Positions 11,493-32,186 of a DNA stretch of 35,516 nt are shown here, piece by piece. Numbering within the stretch: the first letter of the stretch is position 1; the number at the start of each line of letters is the position of its first letter. Origin of the DNA: a bacterium (GTDB taxonomy: Bacteria > UBA9089 > CG2-30-40-21 > SBAY01); contig JBFLXS010000006.1 of the NCBI GenBank assembly GCA_040755795.1, positions 1 to 35,516 of the forward strand. Reading direction: 5' to 3'. The position numbers and the translations under genes were made by a program. The notes under the pieces are model-generated. The model was not told the DNA's origin. It did not search any database and saw nothing but the letters and a program-made list of their open reading frames with translations.

Positions 11493-12992
11493 TTGAAAGA
11501 CAATTATGATGTAATCGTTATTGGAGCAGGGATAGGTGGTTTAACCTGCGGAACATTTTTAGCTAAGGAAGGAATAAGTGTATTGGTGGCGGAAAAGAAT
11601 GATAAGGCAGGAGGATATTGTACCTCATTTAGCCGGGGAGATTATATCTTTGATAGCGGTCCTTCCTCTATTAGTGGCTTAAGCCAAGGAGGGACATTGA
11701 GAAACACATTATCTTTGCTTCAGTTAGAAGACGAAATAACATTTCTTCCCTTAGATTTTAAGGAAAAACTCATTTTCCCCAACTATACCATCGTTATTCC
11801 AACTAATTTTGAGGAATACCAACAAGAACTTATGAGAAGATTTCCTGATGAGAAGGAAGGGATAACTAAATATTTTAAACATATAGAGAATTTGTATTAT
11901 GAGTTTCAAAATATAATGGATGGGGATCTTCTAACCTTATCTAAACAACCTTCGTTGGTTTCATTCAAGAAATATCCAAATATGATTAGATTTCGAGATG
12001 TAACCTTTCACCAGATATTAGATAAATTTTTTACTGATTGTTCTATTAAGGGAATTTTAGCAGTTGGAGGTTGTGGAAGAATAGGACTTCCTCCTAGCAA
12101 AGCTTCATTTATAAGTGTGGCTATTGATAGCATTGAAACTTTAAAATATGGCTTAGTTCATTTTAAAGGAGGGAATCAATTCTTATCAGATGCTTTTGTA
12201 AAAGGGCTGGTGAAATATGGTGGGAATTTAATGTTAGGGCAAAAGGTAAAAAAAATATTGATAGAACAACATAAGGCTTGTGGAATTGTGTTAGAAGACG
12301 GAACACAAATAAGAGGTAAATATATTGTCTCTAATGGTGATGCTAAACAAACTTTTCTTAATCTAATTGGAGAGGAATATTTAAGTAAAGAATTTGTAAG
12401 AATGTTAAATAACGCAGAAGTATCACTATCTGCATTTATAGTTTATCTGGGGGTAAATATTGATTTAAAAAATAAAGGGATAAAAGAAAGTCTATTATGG
12501 TATATTCCATCTTACGATATAAAAGAAGAATATGAAAAGAGTTACGATATCCTGGGAGGAGATTTATATATTCTTATCCCCTCAAATATAGATTCGGGAT
12601 TAGCACCTTTGGGTAAAAGTTGTATTAAGATAGAACAATTAGTGCCGTATCATTGTGGTCATAATTGGGATGAATGTAAGGAAGAGATGGCTAATAGATT
12701 AATTAAAAGAGCAGAACAGATTATTCCAGACCTTTCTAACTATATTGAGATTAAAGAAATAGCTACTCCTTTGACCTTGGAGCGATATACTCTAAATAGT
12801 GAAGGGGCATGTTATGGTTGGGCTAAGACTATAGAGCAAGGAGAATTTTATTATTCTCCAAACCAAAAGACTCCTATTGAAAATCTTTACTTAGCAGGAC
12901 ACTGGACATTCCCGGGGCATGGTGTTCCCACAGTAGCTTGCTCAGGGATATTAGCAGGTAAGAGTATCTTGTCGGAGATAAATAAATCATGA
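11493..12992 (+). CDS. CrtI-like FAD-dependent oxidoreductase (phytoene desaturase/carotenoid isomerase family)
   Basis: This 499-aa protein begins with a dinucleotide-binding fold VIVIGAGIGGLTCG (8-20) and the acidic turn VLVAEKNDKAGGYCTS. It ends with the conserved NLYLAGHWTFPGHGVPTVACSG FAD-contact segment of the CrtI/CrtISO family. The start is TTG at 11493 behind a strong AGGAG site. Members desaturate or isomerise carotenoids, and related proteins occur in other lipid clusters, including candidate ladderane clusters of anammox bacteria. No phytoene synthase or prenyltransferase is present, so a polyene or acyl chain made by the adjacent KS enzymes is a more likely substrate than a carotenoid. 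Its stop overlaps the start of the KS gene (ATGA). Confidence 0.88.
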   Translation: MKDNYDVIVIGAGIGGLTCGTFLAKEGISVLVAEKNDKAGGYCTSFSRGDYIFDSGPSSISGLSQGGTLRNTLSLLQLEDEITFLPLDFKEKLIFPNYTIVIPTNFEEYQQELMRRFPDEKEGITKYFKHIENLYYEFQNIMDGDLLTLSKQPSLVSFKKYPNMIRFRDVTFHQILDKFFTDCSIKGILAVGGCGRIGLPPSKASFISVAIDSIETLKYGLVHFKGGNQFLSDAFVKGLVKYGGNLMLGQKVKKILIEQHKACGIVLEDGTQIRGKYIVSNGDAKQTFLNLIGEEYLSKEFVRMLNNAEVSLSAFIVYLGVNIDLKNKGIKESLLWYIPSYDIKEEYEKSYDILGGDLYILIPSNIDSGLAPLGKSCIKIEQLVPYHCGHNWDECKEEMANRLIKRAEQIIPDLSNYIEIKEIATPLTLERYTLNSEGACYGWAKTIEQGEFYYSPNQKTPIENLYLAGHWTFPGHGVPTVACSGILAGKSILSEINKS

Positions 12993-14227
12993 AAAGGGTT
13001 GTTGTCGCAGGAATAGGTGTATTATCACCGATTGGAAATGATAAAGAGGAATATTGGGAAGGTTTAAGAAGTGGCAAGTCAGGCATTGAAACAATTACCC
13101 TATTTGATACACGAAATTATAAATTTAAGAGAGGCGGAGAAATAAAGGATTTTAATCCTACAAAATACTTTACCAGGAAAGGACTAAGACGGTTGGATAG
13201 AGCTTCTCAAATGGTATTAATTGCTACCCAGGAGGCAATAGATGATGCCCAGATAAATTTTAACCAGATGGAGAAAAACAATTGTGGAGTAGTATTGGGA
13301 ACTACTCTGGGAGGAATGGTTTCTGGGGAAAAATATTATCGCCATTTGAAAAAGAGGCAAGATAGAGTTTATGCTTCTTTATTATTAGATTTCCCAATGT
13401 ATTCAGCAACAGACCATATTTCTATCAGATATAAGTGTAGCGGTTCAATCTTGACTATCTCTACCGCGTGCTCTGCAAGTAATCAGGCTATTGGTTGTGC
13501 CTTTGATTTAATTCGAAAAGGGGAAGATACAATAATTATCACCGGCGGTTTTGACCCATTGTCAGAATTGACCTTTGCAGGTTTTGGAATATTAAGGATT
13601 ATGAGCCTTGATAAGATTAGACCCTTTGATAAGAATAGAACAGGATTAATTCTGGGTGAAGGGGTGGGTATTCTTATTTTGGAAGAATTAGAGCATGCTT
13701 TAAATAGGAAAGCAAAAATATATGCTGAAATAATCGGATACGGAGCAACTACTGATGCATACCATATGACCGCTCCTCATCCACAAGGAGAAGGTGCAGC
13801 TAATGCTATGCAAAAGGCATTAGATGATGCAAATATTAAACCAGATGATGTAGATTATATTAATGCCCATGGGACAGGAACGCTATTTAATGATTTATCA
13901 GAAACAATGGCTATAAAAAAGATAATGGGAGAAGGGGCTTATAAAATACCCATTAGTTCTACAAAATCTATGATTGGACATACTTTAGGTGCGGCAGGGG
14001 CATTGGAGGCAATTGCTACTATTTTAGCCATGCAAAAAGGGATAATTCCTCCCACAATTAATTATGAAACCCCTGACCCTAAATGTGACCTTAATTATGT
14101 GCCCAATTATTCTATTCAAAAAAATATAAGGATTGCTTTATCAAATTCCTTTGGTTTTGGAGGAAATAATGCTACTATAGTGTTTAAAAAATGGGAGGGA
14201 GAAACAGATGACTCTACCTCAAAGTAA
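12989..14227 (+). CDS. Beta-ketoacyl-ACP synthase II-type ketosynthase (KS-A)
   Basis: This 412-aa FabF-family protein has a complete catalytic triad: Cys161 in STACSASNQ, His294 in NAHGTGTLFND and His331 in SMIGHTLGAAGALE, with Lys326. It should decarboxylate malonyl-ACP and extend an acyl chain. It is one of four KAS-fold proteins in the operon and is probably paired with the CLF-like protein at 16908-18128 or the one at 22186-23415. It overlaps the upstream oxidoreductase by 4 bp and the downstream PLP gene by 20 bp, indicating tight co-translation. The sequence is close to FabF, but the duplicated CLF arrangement points to a type II polyketide or specialised fatty acid system rather than housekeeping synthesis. 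Confidence 0.93.
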   Translation: MKRVVVAGIGVLSPIGNDKEEYWEGLRSGKSGIETITLFDTRNYKFKRGGEIKDFNPTKYFTRKGLRRLDRASQMVLIATQEAIDDAQINFNQMEKNNCGVVLGTTLGGMVSGEKYYRHLKKRQDRVYASLLLDFPMYSATDHISIRYKCSGSILTISTACSASNQAIGCAFDLIRKGEDTIIITGGFDPLSELTFAGFGILRIMSLDKIRPFDKNRTGLILGEGVGILILEELEHALNRKAKIYAEIIGYGATTDAYHMTAPHPQGEGAANAMQKALDDANIKPDDVDYINAHGTGTLFNDLSETMAIKKIMGEGAYKIPISSTKSMIGHTLGAAGALEAIATILAMQKGIIPPTINYETPDPKCDLNYVPNYSIQKNIRIALSNSFGFGGNNATIVFKKWEGETDDSTSK

Positions 14228-15437
14228 AATGGAAATGATAAGTAAGATTGCGCAAGAGTATTCCCTTGTCTTTATATGTTTTGAGGATATATTACAAAAT
14301 AATATTGAAAGATTAAAAATATCTGCAAATAATTATCTTAAATTATCTCTCTTTTATTCATATAAAACAAATTGGTTACCTGGGATATGCAAGGTTATAC
14401 ATAAAAATGGTGTTGGTGCAGAAGTAGTCTCTGGATTTGAGTTGTGGTTAGCACGCTTGCTCAAAGTTCCTAATGAGCAAATTATCTTTAATGGCCCCTG
14501 CAAAACTTCAGAGGAATTGAAGGAAGCCAGTAATCCAGGTATTGGATGTTTAAATATAGATTCTTTATCTGAATTTAATCGATTATTAAATACATGGAAT
14601 GGTAATAGTCCAGGAAATTTAGGGATTAGAATAACCCCTGAAAAAATTAGAGATATGCAGGTGTTTGGAATCCTTAGTTCTGACTATAATACTATTGATA
14701 AAATTGTGGAGACAGCTATTAAAAATAACTTTAATCTTAAACTCTTGCATACCCATATAGCTCACTATCTTAACTATAAGGAGATGTGTATTTATGCTTG
14801 TGAAGAATTAATTAAAGTTTTAGCTTATCTCTACAAAAAATATAATATTTTTATTAAAAATATAGATTTAGGAGGAGGACTGAATCCTATTTTATTAGGA
14901 GAAGATAAAGGTTGTTTTTCAGACTGTGAAAATTTCTTTGCCACAGTAAGCAAGATCTTTGAAAAAGAATTGTTGAAACACAGTCTGCCATATCTTATAC
15001 CAAATCTTATTTTAGAACCAGGTCGATTTATAGTTAACAATGCAGTTATGTTATTAACCACTATCCATGCTTTAAAAGAAGTAGACAACCAACATATAGC
15101 TGTATTAGATGCAGGAACAAATATATTAGGAACGCCACATGAAGATATAATTCCTATTTCCACGACTTCTTCCAATAAGACTATTTTGTATAGATTGGTT
15201 GGACCATTATGCTTCCCAGGAGATACAGTAGCTATTTCTGTAAAACTACCACCAGTAAATATAGGTGATAGTCTTTTAATCTTAAATTGTGGTGCTTATA
15301 GCTTATCTAACTCCTGGCAGTTTATTAAAACAAGACCACCAGTAATATTGGTGACAAACAATGATGAGATTAAAATTATTAGAGAAAAAGAGAGGTATGA
15401 AGATATGATAGCCCTGGACAGGTATGATAATCTTTAA
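14208..15437 (+). CDS. Fold-type III PLP-dependent decarboxylase (ornithine/diaminopimelate decarboxylase family)
   Basis: This 409-aa protein has PLP-binding Lys53 in FYSYKTN, the substrate-strand GAEVVSGFEL (70-79), the phosphate-binding IDLGGGLN (Gly222-224), EPGR (270-273), catalytic Cys335 with Asp339 in GPLCFPGD, and Tyr364 in CGAYSLSN. These are the full set of active-site elements of diaminopimelate/ornithine/carboxynorspermidine decarboxylases. The substrate cannot be assigned. It could be a free amino acid feeding polyamine synthesis, or a carrier-bound aminoacyl group as in BtrK of butirosin biosynthesis. Its start lies inside the end of the KS gene with a GGGAGG ribosome binding site at about 14192-14197, so it is coupled to chain synthesis. 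Confidence 0.88.
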   Translation: MTLPQSKMEMISKIAQEYSLVFICFEDILQNNIERLKISANNYLKLSLFYSYKTNWLPGICKVIHKNGVGAEVVSGFELWLARLLKVPNEQIIFNGPCKTSEELKEASNPGIGCLNIDSLSEFNRLLNTWNGNSPGNLGIRITPEKIRDMQVFGILSSDYNTIDKIVETAIKNNFNLKLLHTHIAHYLNYKEMCIYACEELIKVLAYLYKKYNIFIKNIDLGGGLNPILLGEDKGCFSDCENFFATVSKIFEKELLKHSLPYLIPNLILEPGRFIVNNAVMLLTTIHALKEVDNQHIAVLDAGTNILGTPHEDIIPISTTSSNKTILYRLVGPLCFPGDTVAISVKLPPVNIGDSLLILNCGAYSLSNSWQFIKTRPPVILVTNNDEIKIIREKERYEDMIALDRYDNL

Positions 15438-15452
15438 GTGAGAAGAAATACT

Positions 15453-16415
15453 ATGGGAGATTTTACAAAACCAGAATTTTGGAATGAGAGTGAAGAATAT
15501 ATATTTATAAGTATTTTCCCTGGAACGAGGGATTTTGTGAACTTATTTAACATAGGCTCATTTATAACTTCCGCTGATAAGATTTTACATGTGGGTTGTG
15601 GACCAGGTGATTGTGTCATAGAATTAGGACAACACATAAAAGAGGGTATGGTCTATGGTATTGATTTCTCAGAACACTCAATTAATATTGCTCTAGAAAA
15701 GTTAAAATCCCCCACTTTCATTCCTCAAGTAATGGTATGGGGGAGAATAATGGGATTGTGGCATGAAGGGATAATTAAAGATGAAGATTTATATAAATTC
15801 ACATTAGAGATGTGTAGAGAAAGCAAAAAAGATATTCTATCTGAGATAAAAAATGTATATCATCAATATATAGAAATAATAAAACATTATACCTTATTAT
15901 CACCATATTCTACCCTTACATCAGGATTAAAAAAATTAGGGTTGATTGACATTTCTACCCCTCTTTGTTACTATAAATTAATTGAAGGGGTCAAAAGATT
16001 TAATGACCCAATATTTGAGAAAATTGTAGAAACGGATATTCAGAAGTTACAACAAGTAGTAAAATTTGATAAAATGGATGCGTTCTATCTTTTATATCCT
16101 GATAATTATTTTGACAAGGTTTTCGCTCGAGAGATAGAACCGCTTCTTCGTAAAAATGGCTCAAAATGGTTAGATGAGATGATAAGAGTATGTAAACATG
16201 ACGGCGTGATTTTATATGGAGGTTTCAGACTCCCGGGAGAATATCTAAAATCAGATGAGTTAGAAAGTGTTATTTCAGAAATAGAAAAAAGAGAAAAAAT
16301 TACTTTGATAGAAATGGGGAAAAGGAAGTTGGTCTCGTGGTGGGACCCATTATTTAATCTGTCAGACCTTAATGAGAATGTATTTACTCCATATGTGATA
16401 ATAAAAAAAGATTGA
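15453..16415 (+). CDS. Class I SAM-dependent methyltransferase with large internal insertion
   Basis: About 320 aa. SAM-binding motif I is ILHVGCGPGDC (44-54), followed by the acidic strand VYGIDFSE. The expected motif II/III sequence (DAFYLLYPDNYFDKVFARE, about 209-227) does not follow until about 130 residues later. The intervening part (about 86-200) is mostly helical and not seen in standard small-molecule methyltransferases. It could form a lid or bind a carrier protein. I prefer the ATG at 15453 (GAGAAG upstream) to a GTG at 15438 that touches the previous stop. It lies between the PLP decarboxylase and a small unknown gene in the KS operon. The methyl acceptor is unknown. Confidence 0.8.
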   Translation: MGDFTKPEFWNESEEYIFISIFPGTRDFVNLFNIGSFITSADKILHVGCGPGDCVIELGQHIKEGMVYGIDFSEHSINIALEKLKSPTFIPQVMVWGRIMGLWHEGIIKDEDLYKFTLEMCRESKKDILSEIKNVYHQYIEIIKHYTLLSPYSTLTSGLKKLGLIDISTPLCYYKLIEGVKRFNDPIFEKIVETDIQKLQQVVKFDKMDAFYLLYPDNYFDKVFAREIEPLLRKNGSKWLDEMIRVCKHDGVILYGGFRLPGEYLKSDELESVISEIEKREKITLIEMGKRKLVSWWDPLFNLSDLNENVFTPYVIIKKD

Positions 16416-16428
16416 CAAGGAGAAAAAA

Positions 16429-16911
16429 ATGGAAATAGAGAGTATATTTGTGACAAAGTTACCAGATTGGAAGGTTCTGGAAAGGAAAAATAAGAGACAG
16501 ATAAGTTTTTCAAAACCATTTGAACGGGAAGAGATTGTATTCGAAGCTCCAGCAACAATCCCTAGTATGGGAAAGGCTGGAGTAATTAAGATGAGAATAA
16601 ATTATCCTCTTCCAAATGAAGAATTGATTATAAGAAGGTCGATAGAAATAGCGAAGGAAGAGATGTGTAAAGGAATACCTCCCTACTTAAAATATAATGA
16701 AGATGAAATTTCAATTGAAACGATAACTATTGAAAATAAAAGAGTAGAAAGTGTGACCATCCCGCTCTATGTATTTCCAGGTATCACACCAAAAGTTAGG
16801 TCTATTATTATATCTATGGGCAAAATAACATATGTTACCTATGGACTCTATGAGAATGCTGAGATTTTAGCTAATATATTGATAGAAAATATAACTGAGG
16901 AAGAAAGATGA
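16429..16911 (+). CDS. Conserved-looking hypothetical protein, 160 aa
   Basis: I do not recognise a family. The protein is soluble and mixed alpha/beta with no signal peptide or membrane segment. It has an Ile/Val-rich beta pattern in the second half (VESVTIPLYVFPG, VRSIIISMGKITYVTYG) and a C-terminal helix. A good RBS (CAAGGAGAAA) precedes the ATG. It lies 13 bp after the methyltransferase gene and overlaps the CLF gene by 4 bp (ATGA), so it is almost certainly part of the biosynthetic operon. Cyclase, hotdog-type or accessory roles are possible but nothing in the sequence proves any. Confidence 0.7.
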   Translation: MEIESIFVTKLPDWKVLERKNKRQISFSKPFEREEIVFEAPATIPSMGKAGVIKMRINYPLPNEELIIRRSIEIAKEEMCKGIPPYLKYNEDEISIETITIENKRVESVTIPLYVFPGITPKVRSIIISMGKITYVTYGLYENAEILANILIENITEEER

Positions 16912-18128
16912 ACGCTCGTGTTGTAATCACAGGTATAGGCATAATTTCTCCCTATGGGGTAGGGGAGGAAGTCTTTTATAAGGCATTAAAAGAAGGAACC
17001 TCCTGTATAAAGAAGATATCTTTATTTGATGTATCTTCTTTTAAATCTCAAAAAGGTGGTCTTATTACTAATTTTTTACCAGAAGAATTTGATAATGATG
17101 AAAGGTTTTGTCGCTTACCAAGGATTGCTCAATATTCAATTGTTGCCGCAGATTTGGTTATGAAAGATATACAAGATGCTTTTGATTCTACTAAAATAGG
17201 AATATTTTTAGGGACGGACCATGGAGCAATAGAATTTACTGAAAGATTTTATTCAAATTTAATTGAAAAAGGTCCTGAAAGGGTTAATCCGTTATTATTT
17301 CAAGAAACGGTATTTAATGCCCCTGCAAGTCATATTAGTTTAAAATATAAAATTAAGGGACCAACTATCGTCATTACCTCTGGTTATGTTTCGGGATTAT
17401 TATCTGTTATGCAAGGAGTTGATTATCTTCAGAGAGGGAAATTAGATTTAGCTATAGTTGGGGGAATAGAGGAATTAACAAAGACAGTTTATGAAGTGGA
17501 ATATCATTTAGGAATTCTATCCCCTCAAGATGAAGGAGAGGAAGAGTGTAGACCGTTTGATGCAAAGAGGAACGGGTTTATCCCTTCCGAGGGGGCAGGA
17601 ATTCTTCTGATAGAGAGATTAGACCAGGCACGGAAACGAAAAGCTCATATCTACGGAGAAATAATAGGTTGGGGAAATTCATCTGATTCGTATAAAATTG
17701 CTGATTACTCTCCTGAGGGTGAGGGAATTAAAAATGCTATGTTAAAGGCATTGAGAGAGGCAAACTTAAATCCCGAAAAGATAGATTATATTGCTGCGGC
17801 TGCCAATGGAAGCAGAGTATTAGATAGAGCTGAAACAAAGGCAATAAAGGATGTATTTGGCAATTATGCTTATAAAATTGCTCTCAGTAGTATAAAATCT
17901 ATAGTTGGTGAATCAAGTGCACCAAGTGGTGTTTTTAATTTAATCGCAGTCCTATTTAGCATGGAGAATAATCTTATTCCTCCAACAATAAATTATGAAA
18001 ATTATGATCCTGAATGTGATCTTTATTATGTTCCGAACATACCGAAAAGAATGGAAGTAAAAACAGGACTGGCTAATGCCATCTCCTTTGGTGGTAATAG
18101 TTGTAGTATTATAGTCCAAAAATTATAA
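16908..18128 (+). CDS. Chain-length-factor-like KAS protein (CLF-A), active-site Cys replaced
   Basis: This 406-aa FabF-fold protein has all catalytic residues replaced. Aligned to the KS at 12989, the nucleophile Cys position is Tyr160 (VITSGYVSG), the first His is Ala (AAAANGSRVLD) and the second His is Glu (SIVGESSAPSG). This matches a KS-beta/CLF partner that shapes chain length in a heterodimer with a true KS. The usual Gln of actinobacterial CLFs is not present, so it represents a different lineage. The N-terminal RVVITGIGIISPYG and C-terminal NAISFGGNS segments are standard for the fold. Overlap with the preceding 160-aa gene and a 24-bp gap to the ACP gene place it in the operon. Confidence 0.9.
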   Translation: MNARVVITGIGIISPYGVGEEVFYKALKEGTSCIKKISLFDVSSFKSQKGGLITNFLPEEFDNDERFCRLPRIAQYSIVAADLVMKDIQDAFDSTKIGIFLGTDHGAIEFTERFYSNLIEKGPERVNPLLFQETVFNAPASHISLKYKIKGPTIVITSGYVSGLLSVMQGVDYLQRGKLDLAIVGGIEELTKTVYEVEYHLGILSPQDEGEEECRPFDAKRNGFIPSEGAGILLIERLDQARKRKAHIYGEIIGWGNSSDSYKIADYSPEGEGIKNAMLKALREANLNPEKIDYIAAAANGSRVLDRAETKAIKDVFGNYAYKIALSSIKSIVGESSAPSGVFNLIAVLFSMENNLIPPTINYENYDPECDLYYVPNIPKRMEVKTGLANAISFGGNSCSIIVQKL

Positions 18129-18152
18129 AAAAGAAAGGAGTAAGTAAAAAAT

Positions 18153-18464
18153 ATGGAAGAAGTGATTTCAATTGATGAGATTAAAAAAAGACTAAAACAA
18201 CTCATTGTGGAACGGTTAAGGTTAAAAATTAAGCTTGAGGAAATAGAGGATGAAGCACCGCTTTTTGTAGAAGGATTAGGATTAGACTCAATTGAGGCGT
18301 TAGAGATTATAGTAGGGATAGAAGAGGAGTTTAATATAACTGTTCCTGGTGGAGAGGATGAGGAAATGCAACAAAGATTTTATTCTATTAATACTTTAGC
18401 CCAATATGTCAAGGAACTCTTAGAAAAGAAGGATTTAGAAGTACCAACTCCACAATACCTCTAA
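18153..18464 (+). CDS. Acyl carrier protein
   Basis: This 103-aa carrier has the phosphopantetheine site GLGLDSIEALEI with Ser46, a normal helix pattern and a somewhat extended C-terminus (KKDLEVPTPQYL) compared with the roughly 78-aa housekeeping AcpP. A strong RBS (AAAGGAG) precedes it. It is located between a CLF gene and fabZ, so it is the dedicated carrier for this pathway and the probable target of the AcpS at 1914-2285. Confidence 0.93.
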   Translation: MEEVISIDEIKKRLKQLIVERLRLKIKLEEIEDEAPLFVEGLGLDSIEALEIIVGIEEEFNITVPGGEDEEMQQRFYSINTLAQYVKELLEKKDLEVPTPQYL

Positions 18465-18473
18465 AAAGGAATA

Positions 18474-18962
18474 ATGAAAATGGAAGAAAAGATAATGGAG
18501 ATATATGACATAAAAAACCGAATACCTCATAGATTCCCAATGTTATTAGTAGATAGAATAATTGAAATAGAAAGAGGTAAACGGGCAGTAGGGGTTAAAT
18601 GTGTAACCATAAACGAAGGTTTCTTTGAAGGCCATTTCCCTGAGGAACCTATTATGCCAGGTGTTCTGATCATCGAATCTATGTCTCAAGTAGCCGGTAT
18701 CCTTCTCTCAGAAGAAAATGAGAGAGGGAGAAAAAATGAGGGAAAGGAAAATGAGAATGAGGAGAGAAGAATGTATTTGGGGATGGTAGATCATATTAAA
18801 TTTCGTAAACCTGTAATTCCTGGCGATAGAATGCTCATTGAGGTTAATGTCATAAAAACCTTTGTGAATATGGCGAAAGTTAAGGGAGAGGTAAAGGTAG
18901 ATAATGAAATTGTAGCCGAGGGAGAATTAGATTTTGTTGTAGTTAAGAGAAAGGGTAGATAA
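18474..18962 (+). CDS. fabZ: 3-hydroxyacyl-ACP dehydratase (FabZ-like)
   Basis: This 162-aa hotdog-fold enzyme has the FabZ signature IPHRFPMLLVDRI, catalytic His54 in GHFPEEPIMPGV and Glu68 in IIESMSQ. It removes water from 3-hydroxyacyl-ACP to give a trans-2-enoyl chain. A highly charged stretch of about 18 residues rich in Glu, Asn, Arg and Lys (82-99) is inserted between the central helix and the next strand and is not part of ordinary FabZ. No recognisable enoyl reductase is in the window, so its products may stay unsaturated, as in highly reducing type II polyketide systems making polyenes. Confidence 0.93.
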   Translation: MKMEEKIMEIYDIKNRIPHRFPMLLVDRIIEIERGKRAVGVKCVTINEGFFEGHFPEEPIMPGVLIIESMSQVAGILLSEENERGRKNEGKENENEERRMYLGMVDHIKFRKPVIPGDRMLIEVNVIKTFVNMAKVKGEVKVDNEIVAEGELDFVVVKRKGR

Positions 18963-19047
18963 TAGTATTGAAGGGAAATATTCGGATAAAAGAGGAAAAC
19001 CTTGAGAGAAAAAGTTTGAACTTTTATTATCAAAGGAGAAACACCTA

Positions 19048-19797
19048 ATGGCTAATTTATTAGCGGGAAAGGTAGCGATAATTACAGGAGGCACGAAAGG
19101 AATTGGAAAGGCAATTACTCTAAAATTTGCTCAGGAAGGAGCAAAAGTGGTGATTAATTATGCCCATGATGACCAGGAGGCGAAAAAAACAGAAGAGGAA
19201 ATAAGAACCATAGGACAAGAAGTATTACTGGTGAAAGGTTCAGTAAGTGATTGGTTAGCAGTTGAAAGAATGATAAAAGAGACGATTAATAAATGGAAAC
19301 AAATTGATATCCTGGTAAATAATGCAGGAGGTACAAGAGATGGTTTTTTGATGACCATGTCAGATAAAAATTGGGATGAAGTTATAGAATTAAATCTGAA
19401 AGGAACTTATTATTGTTGTAAGGCTGTCTTAAAAACTATGATTAGCCAAAAAAGTGGGAAAATTATTAATATGTCCTCTTTAACAGGAATTACAGGACAG
19501 ATAGGGCAAACCAATTATGCGGCCGCAAAAGGCGGGATAATAAGTTTTACTAAAGCGTTAGCAAGAGAAGTAGGAAGGTTTGGAATATATGCAAATACAG
19601 TTGTCCCTGGGTTTATTGATACAGAGATGATACGAAAACTTCATCCAGAAATTATAGAGATGCATATAGAACTTACCCCATTAGGAAGACTTGGAAAACC
19701 AGAAGAAGTAGCAGATGTAGCTTTATTCCTTGCTTCAGATATGTCAAGTTATATTACAGGTCAAATAATTCATGTCAATGGTGGTGAATATATGTAA
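19048..19797 (+). CDS. fabG: 3-oxoacyl-ACP reductase (FabG-like SDR)
   Basis: This 249-aa classical short-chain dehydrogenase has a TGGTKGIG cofactor loop (13-20), NNAG (91-94), catalytic Ser about 143-144, Tyr157 and Lys161 (NYAAAKGG), and the C-terminal ITGQIIHVNGGEYM typical of FabG. It reduces the keto group made by the KS enzymes, using NADPH in the usual case. A strong RBS (AAAGGAG) lies before the ATG. It is separated from fabZ by 85 bp that hold no gene. Confidence 0.94.
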   Translation: MANLLAGKVAIITGGTKGIGKAITLKFAQEGAKVVINYAHDDQEAKKTEEEIRTIGQEVLLVKGSVSDWLAVERMIKETINKWKQIDILVNNAGGTRDGFLMTMSDKNWDEVIELNLKGTYYCCKAVLKTMISQKSGKIINMSSLTGITGQIGQTNYAAAKGGIISFTKALAREVGRFGIYANTVVPGFIDTEMIRKLHPEIIEMHIELTPLGRLGKPEEVADVALFLASDMSSYITGQIIHVNGGEYM

Positions 19798-19868
19798 CAA
19801 GGTTTTTGAAATGTTCATAACTCATTGCAAGATAAGAAGATATAATTTAAAAAGGAGAGGGAAAAATA

Positions 19869-20963
19869 ATGAATATAACCAGAAGGAAAATTTTTAAAAA
19901 ATTATTAGAAAAAGACCAAGTATTTTTAAAGTTATTAGAAAATCAAGAATCACCTCTTGAGTTCATGAAAGAATTACATTCTTTATACAAAGAAAATTTA
20001 ATAACATTATCAGCCAATAAATACTTTACTATTACCGAGAAAGGAAAAAGATATGCTAATACCCTTAGATTTTTACCAGGAAAAGTAAGATGCGAATTAT
20101 GTCAAGGTAAAGGGATTGATACTACTGAATACCAGTGTATTCTAACAAAATTTAAAGAAATAGTTAAAGATAGACCACTCCCGGTAAACGAATATGACCA
20201 GGGACCAGTTACTCCTGAAGATAGTCTAAGAAGGGTTCTATTTATGTTAGAAAGAGGAGATCTTCAAGATAAAAGGATATTAATCTTAGGAGATGATGAT
20301 TTAATAAGCATTGTTATTGCAATGATGAAGGTAACTGAGAGGATAACAGTGGTGGAAATAGATCAAAGATTAATTGAGTTCATTGAAGCAAGTGGTTTAA
20401 ATATTGAAATCACTCATTACAATGCTGAAGAAACTTTAACATTACCTATTAAATACAGCACTTTTATTACTGATCCGGTAGAAACTATCGAGGGATGGAA
20501 ATTATTTTTATCAAGAGGGATTTCCTGTCTCGATAAATGTGGAACTGTTTATTTCGCCTTGACATCACTGAGATCTTCAAGGGAAAAATGGTATGAGTTC
20601 CAAAGACTAATAAGTGAAATGGGATTAATAATAACAGATATGTTAAGAGATTTCAGCACTTATCCTATGGAAACAAATATTTTAAAGAGTAAATTAGAGA
20701 ATGGTGAACATTTTATGCCTAAAAAAATGACAAGTTTTTTAGAAGAGTTTCTCTTCTCCCAGGAAGATAATTATGAAGATAGTAAGTGGTATACTTCTAC
20801 TTTTGTAAGGGCTGAGGCAATAAATGAACCACGACCTCTTATAATCGGTAACTACAAACTTGGTAATATAATGTATAAGGATAATGAAGGTGTAGAAATA
20901 GAAAGCTGTTTTAAAAAGCTTTTCTTTGAAATTTATAAAGACTTACAAAGTGAAAAGCAGTAA
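19869..20963 (+). CDS. bpsA: BpsA-type branched-chain polyamine synthase (aminopropyltransferase)
   Basis: This 364-aa protein has a winged-helix-like N-terminus (about 1-70), a Cys75-x2-Cys78 pair, the EYDQGPVTPED segment (108-118), a Rossmann core with GDDD (141-144) and EIDQR (163-167), and DPVET (202-206). GDDD and DPxET are hallmark motifs of N4-bis(aminopropyl)spermidine synthase, best known from Thermococcus kodakarensis, which adds aminopropyl groups from decarboxylated SAM to internal amines. The DPPET of that enzyme reads DPVET here. It lies 9 bp before a KS gene in the operon, and SpeH at 1479-1829 supplies the donor. The acceptor could be free polyamine or an amine on the cluster's product. 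Confidence 0.85.
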   Translation: MNITRRKIFKKLLEKDQVFLKLLENQESPLEFMKELHSLYKENLITLSANKYFTITEKGKRYANTLRFLPGKVRCELCQGKGIDTTEYQCILTKFKEIVKDRPLPVNEYDQGPVTPEDSLRRVLFMLERGDLQDKRILILGDDDLISIVIAMMKVTERITVVEIDQRLIEFIEASGLNIEITHYNAEETLTLPIKYSTFITDPVETIEGWKLFLSRGISCLDKCGTVYFALTSLRSSREKWYEFQRLISEMGLIITDMLRDFSTYPMETNILKSKLENGEHFMPKKMTSFLEEFLFSQEDNYEDSKWYTSTFVRAEAINEPRPLIIGNYKLGNIMYKDNEGVEIESCFKKLFFEIYKDLQSEKQ

Positions 20964-20972
20964 AAAAAACAG

Positions 20973-22199
20973 ATGGATGAGAAAGTAGTAGTAACAGGAA
21001 TAGGGGTGATTACCTCTGTTGGTATGGGGAAAGAAGAATTCTGGAATTCCTTAATTTGTGGAAAAGAAGGAATTAAGGAAATAACTTCTTTTGATACGAG
21101 AAAGTACAAATGTAGGAAAGGAGGGGAGATTGAAAGATTTACCTTTCCATCTTATTTAAAAAAGGCAGATAGATCTTCTCAGTTATTAGCTACTTGTGTT
21201 GAGGAAGCTATTAGTGATGCTAAATTGGATTTAGACAAAGAAGATAAGGAAATGACAGGAGTGGTAATTGGAACCGCTCTGGGAGGAATTTTATCTGGTG
21301 AAAAGATTCATTTTGCCTTAAAAAATAATCAACAGAGGAAGATTAAATCATTATTTTTAGAATATCCTTTACATAGAAGTGCAGAGTATATTCGAGATAG
21401 ATTTAATCTGAAAGGATCTATTATTACTCTGAGTAATGCTTGTACTTCAAGCAGTAACGCTATAGGGTATGCATACAATCTTATTCGGTATAAAAGAAGT
21501 GAGATAATGATAGTGGGAGGGGTAGATACCTTATCCCAATTTGTTTTTAGCGGATTTAATTCTCTAAGGATACTTACAGAAGATAAATGTCGACCTTTTG
21601 ATAAAAAAAGGGATGGCTTAGTTTTAGGGGAAGGAGCAGGAGTGATAATCTTAGAAAGGCTACATCATGCTTTATATAGAAACGCACATATTTATGCTGA
21701 AATAGTTGGTTACAGTAACAGTTGTGATGCATGTCATATAAGTGCTCCTGATAAGGAAAGTGATGGGGCTTATCAAGCTATAAAAATTGCTTTAAAAGAA
21801 GCAAAATTAAAAATAAAAGATATAGATTATATTCACCTTCATGGAAATGGAACAATTTATAATGATAGAATGGAATCTACAGCAATTAAAAGAGCTTTTG
21901 GAGTTTATAAGGAAAAGATTCCAGTTTCTGCAATTAAAGCTATGACAGGATATACATTAGGGGCAAGTGGTGTAATAGATGGAATAACCTGTATCTTGAT
22001 TATGAATAATAATTTTATCCCCCCTATTATAAATTATGCAACCCCTGATTCTGAATGTAACCTTAATTTTGTAACTAATAAAGGGAAAAAAAGAAAGGTT
22101 AAGATTTCTTTATCCTTGAGTTCTGGATTTGGGGGAGCTAATACAGTAATTCTCTTTAAAAAATATTCGGGAAGAAAACACAATAATGGAAAACAATAG
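20973..22199 (+). CDS. Beta-ketoacyl-ACP synthase-type ketosynthase (KS-B) with His-to-Tyr substitution
   Basis: This 408-aa FabF-family protein keeps the nucleophile Cys157 (SNACTSSSNAIG) and the first His290 (HLHGNGT). The second catalytic His, in the KSxIGH motif of the family, is Tyr327 (IKAMTGYTLGASG), with Lys322 kept. Both His residues take part in malonyl decarboxylation and thioester stabilisation, so the enzyme may accept acyl chains but show altered or no malonyl decarboxylation. It overlaps the downstream CLF gene by 14 bp and is preceded by bpsA, so it forms the second KS/CLF pair. Specialised roles such as acyl transfer or condensation with a non-standard nucleophile are possible. 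Confidence 0.9.
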   Translation: MDEKVVVTGIGVITSVGMGKEEFWNSLICGKEGIKEITSFDTRKYKCRKGGEIERFTFPSYLKKADRSSQLLATCVEEAISDAKLDLDKEDKEMTGVVIGTALGGILSGEKIHFALKNNQQRKIKSLFLEYPLHRSAEYIRDRFNLKGSIITLSNACTSSSNAIGYAYNLIRYKRSEIMIVGGVDTLSQFVFSGFNSLRILTEDKCRPFDKKRDGLVLGEGAGVIILERLHHALYRNAHIYAEIVGYSNSCDACHISAPDKESDGAYQAIKIALKEAKLKIKDIDYIHLHGNGTIYNDRMESTAIKRAFGVYKEKIPVSAIKAMTGYTLGASGVIDGITCILIMNNNFIPPIINYATPDSECNLNFVTNKGKKRKVKISLSLSSGFGGANTVILFKKYSGRKHNNGKQ

Positions 22200-23415
22200 A
22201 GTAGTTATCTCTGGGATAGGGGTTATAAGTTCTATAGGGATAGGGAAGGAGGCTTTCTGGAATGCTTTAGAGAAAGGAGAGTCAGGGATAAGAGAAATTT
22301 CCAGATTTGATACTTCTTCTTGTAAGGCTAAATTAGGAGGTGAAATTAAAAATTTTGACTTTTACTCGCTAATGCAAATATCGGAAAGTAATGATGATAG
22401 TAGATACAGATTGATGGATTCCCTTTCTAAATTGGGAGTAGCAGGGACAAAATTAGCTCTGGAAGATACAGATTTGGAGATTAAAAAAAATGAGACTTCC
22501 AGAAAAGGTGTTATAGTTGGTACAGTTTTTGGATGTTTAGAAAGTAACGAAATGTTTAATGAAGGAATACTTAGAAAAGGTCCTCTATATGTGAATCCAA
22601 TAATATTTAAGAATACAATATCTAATGGTGTAGGGGCACAAGTGGCGATTGAGTATAGTATTAAGGGAGTAAATCTTACTTTTACATCAGGAATAACCTC
22701 AGGGATGCATGCCATTATTTATGCCTTTGATCTTATCAAACATGGGGAAGCAGATATTATCATTACCATAGGGATAGATAAACTTTGTCAAGTGTTATTT
22801 CAGGGTTTTGATATGTTAAGACTTTTATCCCCTCAAGATAACAAATTAGAAGGGTGTCGACCATTTGACCGCACTCGTAATGGTTTAGTAATAGGAGAGG
22901 GAGCAGGGGTTCTAATTTTGGAGAAATTAAGCTATGCATTAGAGAGAAAGTCGAAGATATATGCAGAAATAGTTGGTTTTGGAATAGCCAGTGGGGAAGA
23001 AAATATCGCACGAGCAATGAGACTATCATTAGAAAATGCAAAGATTTTACCTCAAAAAATTGATTATATCTGTACCAGCGCAAATTCGACTAAAGAATTA
23101 GATAGGAGAGAAACAAAATCAATTAAAGATGTATTTGGGGAATGTGCTTATAAAATCCCAATAAGTAGTATTAAATCTATCGTAGGAGAAACTTTTGGAG
23201 CAGGAGGAATATTTAATGTCATAAGTGGTGCTATGGCTATTTCAGAGGGGATAATACCTCCTACTATTAATTATGAAAATCAAGACCCAGAATGTAACCT
23301 CAATTATGTACCTAACTATCCTCAAAGATCTAAAGTTGAATTTGTTTTAGCCAATACAGCCGGGAGAAAAAAAGGAGAAGCTATTTCAATAGCTATGAAG
23401 AGATATACGCCATAA
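22186..23415 (+). CDS. Chain-length-factor-like KAS protein (CLF-B)
   Basis: This 409-aa KAS-fold protein lacks the catalytic residues. The Cys position is Ile170 (TFTSGITSG), the first His region reads CTSANSTKELD and the second reads SIVGETFGAGG. It resembles the CLF at 16908-18128 in the last two motifs, so the two CLFs likely share an ancestor by duplication of a KS/CLF unit. Its start lies inside the upstream KS gene (14-bp overlap), strong evidence for a KS-B/CLF-B heterodimer. Confidence 0.9.
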   Translation: MENNRVVISGIGVISSIGIGKEAFWNALEKGESGIREISRFDTSSCKAKLGGEIKNFDFYSLMQISESNDDSRYRLMDSLSKLGVAGTKLALEDTDLEIKKNETSRKGVIVGTVFGCLESNEMFNEGILRKGPLYVNPIIFKNTISNGVGAQVAIEYSIKGVNLTFTSGITSGMHAIIYAFDLIKHGEADIIITIGIDKLCQVLFQGFDMLRLLSPQDNKLEGCRPFDRTRNGLVIGEGAGVLILEKLSYALERKSKIYAEIVGFGIASGEENIARAMRLSLENAKILPQKIDYICTSANSTKELDRRETKSIKDVFGECAYKIPISSIKSIVGETFGAGGIFNVISGAMAISEGIIPPTINYENQDPECNLNYVPNYPQRSKVEFVLANTAGRKKGEAISIAMKRYTP

Positions 23416-23434
23416 TTTTTTATAGGTAGAGTAA

Positions 23435-24730
23435 ATGAAAGAGTATCCAACAATGGAATACCTATCATCCCAAAATATTAAAAATGTTCAAGAGGAATTA
23501 TTACAGGAGACAATTAATTACACATACAAATATTCCCCATATTATGAAAGATTATTTAATTCTTATAATATATTACCATCTAAGATTAAGAGATTAGAAG
23601 ATTTAGTTCAAATTCCTCCTACGACAAAATATGATTTACAAAAGAACAATGAGGATTTTTTATGTGTTGATAAAGAAAAGGTAGTAGAGATTGTTTGCAG
23701 TAGTGGGACTACAGGAGAACCAATATTTATAGCCTTAACTAAAAATGACATATATAGATTGGCACGGAACGAAGAATTGAGTTTTCTTTGTACAAATACT
23801 ACTTCCGAGGATCTTTTTCAATTGATGGTAACAAGTGATAATATGTTTATTGCCGGAATGGCATATTATCTTGGAATTACTAAAATAGGGGCTGGAGTTA
23901 TCAGGATGGGACCAGGCAATACAAAAAGACAGATCCGGATATTGGAAGCCCTAAAACCAACGGGTATAGTAAGCGTTCCTTCTTATTTAATTAAAATGCA
24001 TGAAGAAATAATAAATCTTTCCATAGATATCTCTAAATTGTCTCTTAATAAAGCAGTATTGATTGGTGAGAGCATTTTAAATGAGTCATTAAAACTAAAT
24101 CCCTTGGGGCAGAAAATCCGTAATCTGTGGAATATTGAATTGTTTTCTACCTACGGAACCACAGAAATAGCAACTTCTTTTTGTGAATGTATTGTTCACC
24201 AGGGCCTACATTCACATCCTGAATTACTTTATTTTGAAATCCTTGATGAGAACAATAATGTATTAAATGATGGTGAGATGGGAGAATTAACAGTAACTAC
24301 TTTTCAAACCGAAGGAATGCCATTAATCAGGTATAAAACAGGTGATATTACTTTTAAGATTTCCTCCCCTTGTAAATGTGGGCGAACTACTGAAAAAATT
24401 GGTCCAATACTTAGTCGAAAGCATCATTTAATAAAATTTAAAGGAACTACTGTTTATCAGACACAAATTGAAATGGCGTTATTAAAATTTGATGAGATAA
24501 AAAACTATGTCATCGAGGTATCTACAAAGGATAATCTTTCTGATTGGATAGTAGTTAAAGTAGGAGTGAGTAATTTCTCTCCTCTATTAGAAGAAAGAAT
24601 AAAAGATGAGATAAAGGCTTATGCCCGTGTAACTCCAGAAATCCAGATGTTTACCCCTAGTGAAGTAGAAAAATTTTTATTCACTGAGGGCTCTAGAAAA
24701 CCTAAAAAGTTTGTTGATTTAAGGAAATGA
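23435..24730 (+). CDS. PaaK-like adenylate-forming ligase
   Basis: This 431-aa protein has the phenylacetate-CoA-ligase-type pattern: P-loop SSGTTGEP (89-96), YGTTE, a RYKTGD motif and a CKCGRT segment, followed by GPILSRKHHLIKFKGT where PaaK enzymes hinge to the C-terminal lid. Such enzymes activate a carboxylate as acyl-AMP and pass it to CoA, a carrier or an amine. The gene is 19 bp after CLF-B and directly followed by the third radical SAM gene. It could load a starter acid or couple the finished chain to a polyamine. An amidation role is inference, since the acceptor cannot be read from sequence. Confidence 0.87.
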   Translation: MKEYPTMEYLSSQNIKNVQEELLQETINYTYKYSPYYERLFNSYNILPSKIKRLEDLVQIPPTTKYDLQKNNEDFLCVDKEKVVEIVCSSGTTGEPIFIALTKNDIYRLARNEELSFLCTNTTSEDLFQLMVTSDNMFIAGMAYYLGITKIGAGVIRMGPGNTKRQIRILEALKPTGIVSVPSYLIKMHEEIINLSIDISKLSLNKAVLIGESILNESLKLNPLGQKIRNLWNIELFSTYGTTEIATSFCECIVHQGLHSHPELLYFEILDENNNVLNDGEMGELTVTTFQTEGMPLIRYKTGDITFKISSPCKCGRTTEKIGPILSRKHHLIKFKGTTVYQTQIEMALLKFDEIKNYVIEVSTKDNLSDWIVVKVGVSNFSPLLEERIKDEIKAYARVTPEIQMFTPSEVEKFLFTEGSRKPKKFVDLRK

Positions 24731-24731
24731 A

Positions 24732-25796
24732 ATGAAATCAAAACTAAAATCTCCAGAAAGCGTATATGGGCTGAATTTCACTAAAGGAGAGATAGAAGAA
24801 GCTAAAGAAAAAGGACATCTTCTTAGTTTGGACATGGAATTAAGTAATGTATGTAATTTAAGATGTAAGTATTGCTATAATACATCGGGAGAAAGATTAA
24901 AAAACGAGTTGCAGTTAGCTGAAGTCATTGATATAATAAACCAGGCGAAAGATTTAGGGGTAAGAAGTATTATTATTATCGGAGGAGGAGAACCGATACT
25001 TTTTAACGGGCTATTAGAGATATTAACTTACCTAAATAAAAAGGGTATTCTTTCTGTTCTCTTTACCAATGGAACTATGATTACCCGGGAAATAGCAGAA
25101 AAATTATTTGAGAATAATGTCTCGGTGGTAATGAAATTAAATAGTATGAATTCAAAAATACAAGATTTTTTAGCTGGTAAAAAAGGTGCCTATGAAATGA
25201 TGATGCAGGGACTACAAAATTTGATTAAAGCAGGATTCCCTTCAAGGGAATGTCGATTTGGAATTGAAACGGTAATTTGTAAACAAAATATTGAAGAGAT
25301 TCCAAAGATGTGGGTTTGGAGTCGTGAAAATGGCTATATCCCCTACTTTGAAACTATCACTTATCAAGGAAGAGCACAAAAATATAATCTTAATGTTAGT
25401 TCTCAAGAAATAAAAGAATTATTCTACAAATTGCTGTCAATTGATGAGAGAAAATTTGGACTTACATGGGAACCAAAACCTCCAATTGCAGGTATGAGCT
25501 GTAAAAGACATTACTATAGCTGTGTAGTGAATTCACAAGGGTTTGTCCAACCATGCGTAGGGATTGATATCTATGTGGGGAATATACGATATAAACCTCT
25601 TAAAACAATATTAAGGGAATCTACAATAATTAATAACCTGAGAAATATGGATAAAAATATTAAGGGAAGTTGTAAAGAATGTTCATTAAAGATGGATTGT
25701 TACGGTTGTCGCGGAATGGCTTATCATATATACGGTGATTATTTTGAAGCAGACCCTCTGTGTTGGAATAATCCACACAGACTAAGGTATGTATAA
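24732..25796 (+). CDS. Radical SAM/SPASM enzyme lacking a PqqD domain
   Basis: This 354-aa protein has the radical SAM triad Cys41-x3-Cys45-x2-Cys48 (CNLRCKYC), GGGEP and a C-terminal SPASM region with CKECSLKMDCYGCRG and a final LCWN. Unlike the two maturases near the start of the window, it has no N-terminal PqqD-like domain and begins directly with the core, and no small peptide gene is next to it. It is separated from the ligase gene by 1 bp, so it belongs to the chain-building operon. It may act on the acyl/amine product or an amino acid building block rather than a peptide, although an unrecognised peptide substrate cannot be excluded. Confidence 0.88.
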   Translation: MKSKLKSPESVYGLNFTKGEIEEAKEKGHLLSLDMELSNVCNLRCKYCYNTSGERLKNELQLAEVIDIINQAKDLGVRSIIIIGGGEPILFNGLLEILTYLNKKGILSVLFTNGTMITREIAEKLFENNVSVVMKLNSMNSKIQDFLAGKKGAYEMMMQGLQNLIKAGFPSRECRFGIETVICKQNIEEIPKMWVWSRENGYIPYFETITYQGRAQKYNLNVSSQEIKELFYKLLSIDERKFGLTWEPKPPIAGMSCKRHYYSCVVNSQGFVQPCVGIDIYVGNIRYKPLKTILRESTIINNLRNMDKNIKGSCKECSLKMDCYGCRGMAYHIYGDYFEADPLCWNNPHRLRYV

Positions 25797-25815
25797 AGAG
25801 GAAGGATGCTATTCT

Positions 25816-27321
25816 ATGATGCAAAAAGGAAAAATGAGAAAGATGGTGAGAATAATAATATGGGGATGGATGCTATTTTCTTTTTTAAAAAGTAATTACA
25901 TCAGCGCAGAAAACCAGAATATGTTACAATTAGATAGTATAACGATTGAAGGGAATTCAATATACACCGCTTCAGAAATTAAAAAAATAATGATGACAAA
26001 AGAAGGTGAAAGATTCCATGAGGAAATATTCCTTCAGGACCTCCAACAAATTAAAGAACTCTATCATAACCAGGGATATATTTATGCCGAGGTTAAGAAT
26101 TTTAAAATAGATGACACAAAGAAATTATTATTATCTATCACCGAAGGGAAAATTAAAGAGTTAATAATTCACGGTAATAAAAAAACCAAAGAAAAAATAA
26201 TAAAACAAGAGATTAGACTAAAAGAAGGAGATGTCTTTAATATAAAAAACTGTGAACAAGACTTACAAAGACTGAAGAATCTCCAATTGTTTAACTCAGT
26301 GGATTATGAAGTAGAATATGATGATGATAGGCTTAAATTAGCATTTATTGTGGAAGAAAGCTGGACAATTCTTCCCTGGATTGATTTTGGAAGTGATGGT
26401 AGAAGCTATTGGGAAATAGGGATAACATGGGGCAATTTCATGGGGAATAATCAATCGATAGACCTATCCTATGGTCAGGTTGAGTCTTTCTCTTGCTATG
26501 AGATAGAATTCTTTGACCCACGGGTCTTTGGAAGTAATTATTCAATTAAATTAGGACTTTCTTCAGAAAGGATATTGGATGAAGAACATAAAGAAGGAAA
26601 AGTAATGAGCCTCTACGAAAGGACAACTCAAAGTAAAAATATAGAAATTGGTAAAAAGATTGAAGAATATTGGGAGCTTTTATTCGGATTTAAAACTGCC
26701 GAGGAATCATTCGTATTAGAGAAGAATTCACCGTATCCCACTCCTATTCCTAAAAATGGTAAAACAAATTTATTGACTATAGGTGCAAAATATGATAAAA
26801 TGAACTTCGATGATGAAATTTTAGATGGATATTTATATTACCTCTCTCTGGGAATATCTGATAAAAATGTTGGTTCGGATTTTAATTTTACAAAGATAAG
26901 ATTTAATTACACCCAGTTTAGTAAATTGAAGGAGAGAAAAAACCTTGGCTGCCGAGTTATGGGAGGCATAGGGAGAGGGAAATACGGGAGGAATTTAGAG
27001 ATGCAACACCGATTTGAACTAAATGACTTCATCCGTGGATACCCTGCCTATGAATTTAAGGGGGATAAGATGGTGGTCTTTAATACAGAATATCGCTATC
27101 CCCTATTAAATAGTGATATGGCAATGATTCAAGGAGTAAACTTTATAGATATAGGGAATGTGTGGTCCGATAAGTTTGGCCATCTAAAAATGGGTATAGG
27201 GATAGGTATTCGGGGGATATTTAAGCCTATTCCCGAAGCGGTGATTAGGTTAGATTCTGTCTATGGACTAAATTCCTCTGAAGGACCTAAGTTATATTTG
27301 GGATTAGGACAATTCTTTTAG
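25816..27321 (+). CDS. Omp85/BamA-TamA-like outer-membrane protein with POTRA domains
   Basis: About 501 aa from the preferred ATG at 25816. An upstream in-frame ATG at 25789 overlaps the radical SAM gene, but AAAGAGGAAGG at about 25795-25805 fits the later start. A signal peptide includes IIIWGWMLFSFL. Two POTRA-like modules follow (LDSITIEGNSIYTASEIKK and IKELIIHGNKKTKEKIIKQE), then a beta-barrel of about 300 residues. The conserved FIRGYP loop motif and a terminal Phe-Phe are typical of Omp85 barrels. Family members insert outer-membrane proteins or translocate substrates. It is shorter than BamA (fewer POTRA domains). Its position right after the biosynthetic genes suggests a dedicated envelope role. 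Confidence 0.87.
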   Translation: MMQKGKMRKMVRIIIWGWMLFSFLKSNYISAENQNMLQLDSITIEGNSIYTASEIKKIMMTKEGERFHEEIFLQDLQQIKELYHNQGYIYAEVKNFKIDDTKKLLLSITEGKIKELIIHGNKKTKEKIIKQEIRLKEGDVFNIKNCEQDLQRLKNLQLFNSVDYEVEYDDDRLKLAFIVEESWTILPWIDFGSDGRSYWEIGITWGNFMGNNQSIDLSYGQVESFSCYEIEFFDPRVFGSNYSIKLGLSSERILDEEHKEGKVMSLYERTTQSKNIEIGKKIEEYWELLFGFKTAEESFVLEKNSPYPTPIPKNGKTNLLTIGAKYDKMNFDDEILDGYLYYLSLGISDKNVGSDFNFTKIRFNYTQFSKLKERKNLGCRVMGGIGRGKYGRNLEMQHRFELNDFIRGYPAYEFKGDKMVVFNTEYRYPLLNSDMAMIQGVNFIDIGNVWSDKFGHLKMGIGIGIRGIFKPIPEAVIRLDSVYGLNSSEGPKLYLGLGQFF

Positions 27322-27357
27322 GATAATGTGAGGAAAATTGCTCTTGGGAGAAAATAG

Positions 27358-28251: not shown

Positions 28252-28328
28252 AAAATTGGAATTCCAATAGATTGATTTTGTAAGGGAAGAAAACTCTAAG
28301 TCGGGCAAATACCAGGATTGATAAAAAA

Positions 28329-31462: not shown

Positions 31463-31468
31463 GATATA

Positions 31469-32182: not shown

Positions 32183-32186
32183 AAAT

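Follow-up and report, generated by a model that had tools for sequence, protein, structure and literature searches.

Clusters of type II fatty acid synthesis (FASII) genes in Kuenenia (kuste3335-3352 and kuste3603-3608) and in Desulfotalea psychrophila have been proposed to synthesise polyunsaturated fatty acids (PUFA) or ladderanes. The Kuenenia clusters combine FabF and a non-canonical FabF with an acyl carrier protein (ACP), FabZ, FabG, a phytoene-desaturase-like protein, an S-adenosylmethionine (SAM, AdoMet) methylase, a radical SAM protein and a phenylacetyl-CoA ligase, and show synteny with Desulfotalea (PMC2649909, PMC4790861). Here, we describe a related operon at positions 11493-25796 of a 35,516 nucleotide long stretch (the window), which is an entire contig (C6) of the host genome (G000; 4.7 Mb, 771 contigs). 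From its genes, we lean towards reading this operon as an anammox/Desulfotalea-type cluster for a polyene or other acyl chain with a built-in module for amine and aminopropyl tailoring. Its polyketide part belongs to a known type; new are the AdoMet decarboxylase SpeH, a pyridoxal phosphate (PLP) dependent decarboxylase and a BpsA-like aminopropyltransferase. An earlier note on this DNA regarded the gene set as absent from all described pathways, which holds for the polyamine genes but not for the acyl part, whose set was published for Kuenenia and Desulfotalea in 2009 (PMC2649909, PMC4790861).

The operon and its kinship with the anammox clusters

Reading frames and family scans (Pfam and NCBIfam, 30 window proteins) recovered every gene named in the earlier note, and these do form a single tight operon of 14 same-strand genes with intergenic gaps of −20 to +85 bp. 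KS denotes a ketosynthase and CLF, chain-length factor, its non-catalytic partner:

11493..12992, +, CrtI/CrtISO-like flavin adenine dinucleotide (FAD) oxidoreductase (TIGR02730 4e-58, TIGR02734 1.5e-53, both below cut-off)
12989..14227, +, KS1 ketosynthase, Cys-His-His (PF00109/PF02801, residues, tree)
14208..15437, +, fold-III PLP decarboxylase of the diaminopimelate (DAP)/Orn/Arg type, distinct from LysA (PF02784 5e-25, motifs)
15438..16415, +, SAM-dependent methyltransferase with a long insertion (PF13847 2e-12)
16429..16911, +, 160-aa orphan protein (no Pfam, NCBIfam or PDB family)
16908..18128, +, CLF1, non-catalytic KS partner (Y163, A298, E333; residues, tree)
18153..18464, +, acyl carrier protein (PF00550; best NCBIfam model PRK09184, below cut-off)
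18474..18962, +, FabZ-type dehydratase (TIGR01750 above cut-off)
19048..19797, +, FabG-type ketoreductase (TIGR01830 above cut-off)
19869..20963, +, BpsA-like aminopropyltransferase (PF01861, BpsA_C, 7e-65, 219 bits; PDB 5xnc 6e-47)
20973..22199, +, KS2 ketosynthase, Cys-His-Tyr (best PDB match 9s5h_B, residues, tree)
22186..23415, +, CLF2, non-catalytic KS partner (I163, S298, E333; residues, tree)
23435..24730, +, FlxY/PaaK-like acyl-adenylating ligase (NF053551, 501 bits vs cut-off 520)
24732..25796, +, radical SAM/SPASM enzyme (PF04055/PF13186)

Both KS/CLF pairs claimed before are present, but KS1 and CLF1 are not neighbours: the decarboxylase, the methyltransferase and the orphan gene intervene. 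SpeH and the holo-ACP synthase AcpS do lie upstream on the same strand, but in a distinct unit (1479-3817) 7.7-10 kb away:

1479..1829, +, SpeH AdoMet decarboxylase (PF02675 1e-36; TIGR03330 above cut-off)
1914..2285, +, AcpS holo-ACP synthase, extra copy (PF01648)
2330..3817, +, radical SAM/SPASM protein with an N-terminal extension of ~100 aa (PF04055, PF13186), of uncertain membership in the system

With the anammox and Desulfotalea clusters, the window has in common the KS with a non-canonical partner in which Cys/His/His is lost, ACP, FabZ, FabG, the CrtI-like protein, the methyltransferase, radical SAM and the PaaK-like ligase. In addition, its KS and CLF sequences cluster with 9s5h_B and 9s5h_C, the putative Kuste3605 and Kuste3606. 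It differs in the Cys-His-Tyr site of KS2 and in its SPASM-type radical SAM enzymes. Moreover, BpsA, a PLP decarboxylase and an AdoMet decarboxylase, all three present in the window, do not appear in the published gene lists of these systems.

Concerning 9s5h, we infer that it is the anammox Kuste3605/3606 pair because 9s5h_C, when aligned with CLF1, shows Val163, Asn298, Tyr300, Gly302, Lys328, Glu333, Gln342 and Arg392, and thus matches Kuste3606 at all eight diagnostic residues listed in Table 2 of Rattray et al. 2009 (PMC2649909). The best PDB match of KS2 is 9s5h_B (367 bits; runner-up 289), the two best matches of CLF1 are 9s5h_B and 9s5h_C, and both are among the best four of CLF2. In a maximum-likelihood tree, KS1, KS2 and 9s5h_B cluster separately from the FabF proteins of the phylum (99/96), and CLF1, CLF2, 9s5h_C and a CLF from another genome of the phylum (G005) cluster together (100/99); several KS/CLF branches in this tree are long, and not every placement is certain.

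KS1 keeps Cys/His/His, and the matching sites are Y/A/E in CLF1 and I/S/E in CLF2. The active-site Cys is kept in 38 of the 42 KS-like sequences compared. Position 333 is Tyr only in KS2 and in its orthologue from G003, a genome of a different genus in the same family as the host; all other Cys-bearing KSs examined have His. Formation of a C-N bond by a ketosynthase has been described for the KS of CalA3 in calcimycin synthesis (PMC10006239), which sets a precedent for the kind of reaction alone, since CalA3 has Cys-His-His and depends on its second His. A further KS/KS-like pair is found in the host on contig C20 (5070-7567); the partner has Arg163, Asp298 and Asp333.

The amine genes and their conservation in a second genus

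Like BpsA of Thermococcus and Thermus, the window protein has the BpsA_C domain, the GDDD motif and the equivalents of Asp225 and Tyr290 of Tk-BpsA (numbering after the 5xnc alignment and the review PMC12979288); DQG and TDP are intact as well. It differs from them in its linkage to KS/CLF genes and in three features of the protein: Arg stands at the acceptor position Glu259 of Tk-BpsA, which is still Glu in G003; a segment has been inserted ahead of the WYxS motif; and in place of the conserved C-terminal end there is an extension of about 20 residues. In the acidic carrier motif of the C-terminus, YxDxE is kept in the window, reading DNE, and G003 has YxDNN. The C-terminal segment of BpsA steers acceptor choice. 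The acceptor/lid region differs from all 29 other BpsAs aligned, and identity to the nearest BpsAs found outside G003 is 36-40%. The host genome has one BpsA copy, the one within the operon.

The PLP-Lys, GGG, EPGR (ESGR in G003) and the catalytic Cys of the decarboxylase are kept, as in its PDB relatives, which are DAP decarboxylase, N-citrylornithine decarboxylase and BtrK; CFPGD and HIAH set it apart from these. The LysA-type enzymes of the phylum, to which it is ~30% identical (TIGR01048, 198 bits vs a cut-off of 298), have CExGD and HIGS at these places. SpeH is the third copy in the host, 59% identical over 116 aa to a housekeeping copy on contig C39, where SpeH, SpeE and a second AdoMet decarboxylase lie together; a LysA-type decarboxylase is encoded on contig C127. 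Since the host has these separate housekeeping SpeH-SpeE and LysA-type genes, the window copies are dedicated ones. Four AcpS genes are present in the host, compared with 0 or 1 in other genomes of the phylum.

In G003, BpsA, KS2 and CLF2 lie in this order on a 3.1 kb contig (70/79/77% identical to the window), and CrtI, KS1, decarboxylase and methyltransferase follow each other as in the window on a 4.8 kb contig (69/83/80/77%). The earlier note had argued that the 9 bp between the BpsA stop and the KS2 start are no chance neighbourhood; this spacing, together with the gene order, recurs in G003 and bears the argument out. BpsA has a ratio of non-synonymous to synonymous substitution (dN/dS, Nei-Gojobori, window vs G003) of ~0.36, the decarboxylase one of ~0.23, and the remaining genes have values of roughly 0.20-0.34. 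This indicates that every gene compared is under purifying selection, BpsA and the decarboxylase included. Thus, the functional link of BpsA, the decarboxylase and KS/CLF, proposed in the earlier note, is supported by gene order in a second genus, by selection and by housekeeping genes located elsewhere. The recurrence in a second genus points to an amine-bearing lipid or pigment not yet described.

BpsA relatives were detected in 34 of 386 sampled genomes. At the loci inspected (30 matches, 1.5 kb flanks), BpsA adjoins a KS of this clade only in the host and G003. Among 84,980 species genomes, just G003 and one ordinary BpsA were picked up by a pattern-based scan, which detects close relatives only. 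The BpsA of Aerophobetes was considered and set aside as an ordinary polyamine gene, located beside an AdoMet decarboxylase in a housekeeping region. AcpS stands head-to-head beside BpsA in several families of other lineages (six loci), and FabF adjoins BpsA in one further family (two loci), so that BpsA repeatedly neighbours genes for acyl chains; as a partner of KS/CLF type the latter was rejected, being an ordinary FabF on the opposite strand.

The operon has a GC content of 33%, compared with 34-38% in other sampled contigs of the host, and of 31% compared with 36-39% in G003. Its synonymous divergence (pS) between the two genomes is 0.36-0.42, below that of most other orthologues compared (0.51-0.76). 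The operon is absent from another genome of the host's genus, whose KS proteins are not orthologues of the window KSs. Patchy presence, AT-richness and low pS suggest lateral acquisition, and the operon has probably been acquired in this way. Given that four genes on an AT-rich contig (C47) have pS values of 0.20-0.40, as low as or lower than the operon, base composition or a second transfer may contribute to the low pS. A tblastn search of a plasmid collection with BpsA gave no match, leaving plasmid-borne spread unsupported.

Flanking genes and other polyene or polyamine systems

The co-directional run is wider than the operon, reaching from an acyltransferase gene at 6855 to ABC (ATP-binding cassette) permease genes ending at 34929 with a largest gap of 132 bp. 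Machinery for a polyene or fatty acyl chain, as assumed in the earlier note, is supported, with genes for the envelope and for export flanking it:

6855..7769, +, LpxL-like acyltransferase (weak match, PF03279 1.4e-5), opening the long run
9607..11360, +, DrrAB-like ABC exporter, ATPase 9607-10563 and permease 10560-11360 (PF00005, PF01061; drrA/drrB models below cut-off)
25789..29483, +, envelope genes: BamA-like Omp85 with POTRA (25789), TPR (27358), porin-like outer-membrane protein (28329)
29486..34929, +, NEW3-domain protein, ABC ATPase and two ABC-2 permeases

Within the run, 7795-9603 encodes a TlpA/ResA-type thioredoxin domain fused to BNR-like repeats. Upstream of the acyltransferase gene is a 717-bp gap (6138-6854) with no convincing open reading frame (ORF). 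Between two paralogous radical SAM/SPASM genes of 51% identity, a 28-codon ORF at 3995-4081 (+; MIIEEMEVEGIRNEMTNCGCGGSKVVCK) has a strong Shine-Dalgarno sequence (AGGAGGTGAT) and is followed by a hairpin at about 4099-4160. It looks like the precursor of a radical-SAM ribosomally synthesised and post-translationally modified peptide; NCBIfam gave no match for it. Promoter and terminator scans showed no signal above chance, and no Rfam family was found. The 160-aa orphan had a single chance-level match among the 386 genomes, a distant one that was rejected as an unrelated protein. Single-sequence structure prediction was unusable, with a mean pLDDT (predicted local distance difference test) of 32 for the orphan and 36 for the methyltransferase.

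With aryl polyene and flexirubin clusters the window has in common KS/CLF, ACP, FabZ, FabG, an LpxL-like acyltransferase and a FlxY-like ligase near the cut-off, as well as export and outer-membrane genes nearby; it adds the CrtI-like protein, radical SAM, BpsA and the decarboxylase. Among the 30 window proteins, none belongs to the families of the aryl polyene markers ammonia-lyase, LolA and MMPL. Of the flexirubin proteins DarA and DarB, the window has no DarA, and KS2 scores 31 bits against DarB at a cut-off of 550. Zeamine and fabclavine resemble the proposed product in joining an amine-rich chain to polyketide-type chemistry. They are made by modular polyketide synthases/non-ribosomal peptide synthetases and PUFA-type synthases. 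No such megasynthase is encoded in the window, where the largest protein has 658 aa and all enzymes are discrete. A literature search for type II polyketide synthases with polyamine or aminopropyl chemistry found no description in the collection of papers covered.

Proposed pathway and competing explanations

In the proposed pathway, AcpS would charge the ACP, and the PaaK-like ligase with its radical SAM partner would prepare or load a starter acid. KS1/CLF1, FabG and FabZ could extend this starter to a conjugated polyenoyl or polyunsaturated acyl-ACP, whose chain the CrtI-like enzyme may desaturate or isomerise. The decarboxylase would convert an amino acid to an amine; a neutral or carrier-bound substrate is suggested because its active site is without the acidic residue of the LysA-type enzymes of the phylum. 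SpeH would supply decarboxylated SAM, from which the BpsA-like enzyme may add at least one aminopropyl group to the pathway amine. KS2/CLF2, with Tyr at the site of the second catalytic His, could perform a non-standard acyl transfer, perhaps the joining of chain and amine, and the ABC and Omp85-type proteins would export the amine-bearing lipid or polyene to the envelope. What can be read directly from the DNA is which genes are present, how the KS/CLF proteins are related, that BpsA and the decarboxylase are linked with KS genes in a second genus too, and that housekeeping genes for polyamines and of the LysA type lie elsewhere; a polyamine-bearing product would be a reasonable prediction. 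Much more tentative, and in our view rather doubtful, is the full proposal: an aminopropylated (lipopolyamine-like) polyene or polyunsaturated lipid as a new product class, made with decarboxylated SAM chemistry in a type II pathway, in which KS2/CLF2 would join the ACP-bound chain to the amine rather than catalyse malonyl condensation.

Several observations weigh against the reading as an acyl cluster with a built-in amine module. The combination occurs in two genomes only, and in G003 the genes are split over two short contigs that are assumed to join. Neither an AdoMet decarboxylase nor a true spermidine synthase was found in G003, where the assembly is broken, and the donor for its BpsA is therefore unaccounted for; also, the 160-aa orphan was not found after the methyltransferase. 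Arg in place of Glu259 makes the activity of the window BpsA uncertain, and we only infer the product, the acceptor of BpsA and the role of KS2.

Further, related clusters exist without the amine genes. A sister cluster in G005 (contig C215), with three KS-like genes, encodes relatives of CLF1 (48-49%), KS2 (45%), the ketoreductase (54%), ACP (45%) and AcpS (44%), in addition to a FabD-type acyltransferase, a thioesterase, a GcvT-like protein and a FeeM-type N-acyl amino acid synthase, as well as LolA-like, TPR and outer-membrane proteins, the latter two weak relatives of those in the window. It has no BpsA or decarboxylase; thus, the acyl machinery exists without the amine module. Acyl-to-amine transfer may nevertheless occur in this kin group by a different enzyme, as the FeeM-type synthase suggests. 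In five of six other genomes with a PaaK/FlxY-like ligase, this ligase directly precedes a radical SAM/SPASM gene (43-45% identical to that of the window), and KS genes are near the ligase in five of the six, once also with LolA and acyltransferase genes. These five ligase-radical SAM pairs, all from other lineages, mostly occur with KS, ketoreductase and CrtI. BpsA and the decarboxylase had no match in the six ligase regions. The comparison on which the earlier note had let the functional link depend is accordingly divided: the sole orthologous cluster found, that of G003, keeps both genes, but the less closely related sister and cousin clusters lack both.

Alternatively, BpsA, SpeH and the decarboxylase might make free branched or long-chain polyamines for the stabilisation of nucleic acids or membranes and merely share the operon with an acyl-chain cluster, for instance because both act at the envelope in response to one stress. 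BpsA elsewhere does serve polyamine metabolism of thermophiles, sometimes beside an AdoMet decarboxylase (three loci), branched polyamines occur in membrane fractions (PMC12979288), and GDDD and several acceptor residues are kept in the window protein. However, in two genera just 9 bp separate BpsA from KS2, and the genes for KS1 and the decarboxylase overlap; the host has its own housekeeping SpeH-SpeE, and the acceptor/lid region has diverged from that of the 29 aligned BpsAs. In addition, BpsA is absent (E ≤ 1e-15) from the other 17 genomes of the phylum, including a same-genus genome of 99% completeness, and therefore does not belong to general physiology. We regard this explanation as unlikely.

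An improbable explanation, too, is that the BpsA fold no longer serves aminopropyl transfer to polyamines and has been recruited for a different alkyl transfer, of aminopropyl or another group, directly to a carrier-bound or lipid intermediate, and that the decarboxylase has an ACP-bound amino acid as its substrate, like BtrK of butirosin synthesis. The change of Glu259 to Arg, the altered C-terminal motif, the insertion and the extension would agree with this, as would CFPGD in place of CExGD and the presence of BtrK among the PDB relatives; on the other hand, the donor-site motifs GDDD, DQG and TDP are intact, a dedicated SpeH upstream fits decarboxylated SAM as donor, and Glu259 is kept in G003. 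Finally, that BpsA and the decarboxylase are hitch-hikers in a laterally moving cluster with no part in the product is very hard to believe: its AT-richness, its low synonymous divergence, its absence from the same-genus genome and the cousin clusters without both genes would fit, but the two genes were inserted at separate points of a single transcription unit, where they overlap or almost touch KS genes, and are kept in two genera with dN/dS of 0.23 (decarboxylase) and 0.36 (BpsA).

If the link between the amine genes and the acyl cluster is real, branched-polyamine chemistry of the type known from thermophile polyamines would be built into an anammox-type acyl or polyene pathway, and the range of uses of decarboxylated SAM would be wider. 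KS2, the BpsA-like protein and the decarboxylase would then be discrete enzymes open to testing. Likewise, the unsolved anammox cluster could be compared with a natural counterpart that has the same core of KS/CLF, CrtI, methyltransferase, PaaK and radical SAM and an amine module in addition.

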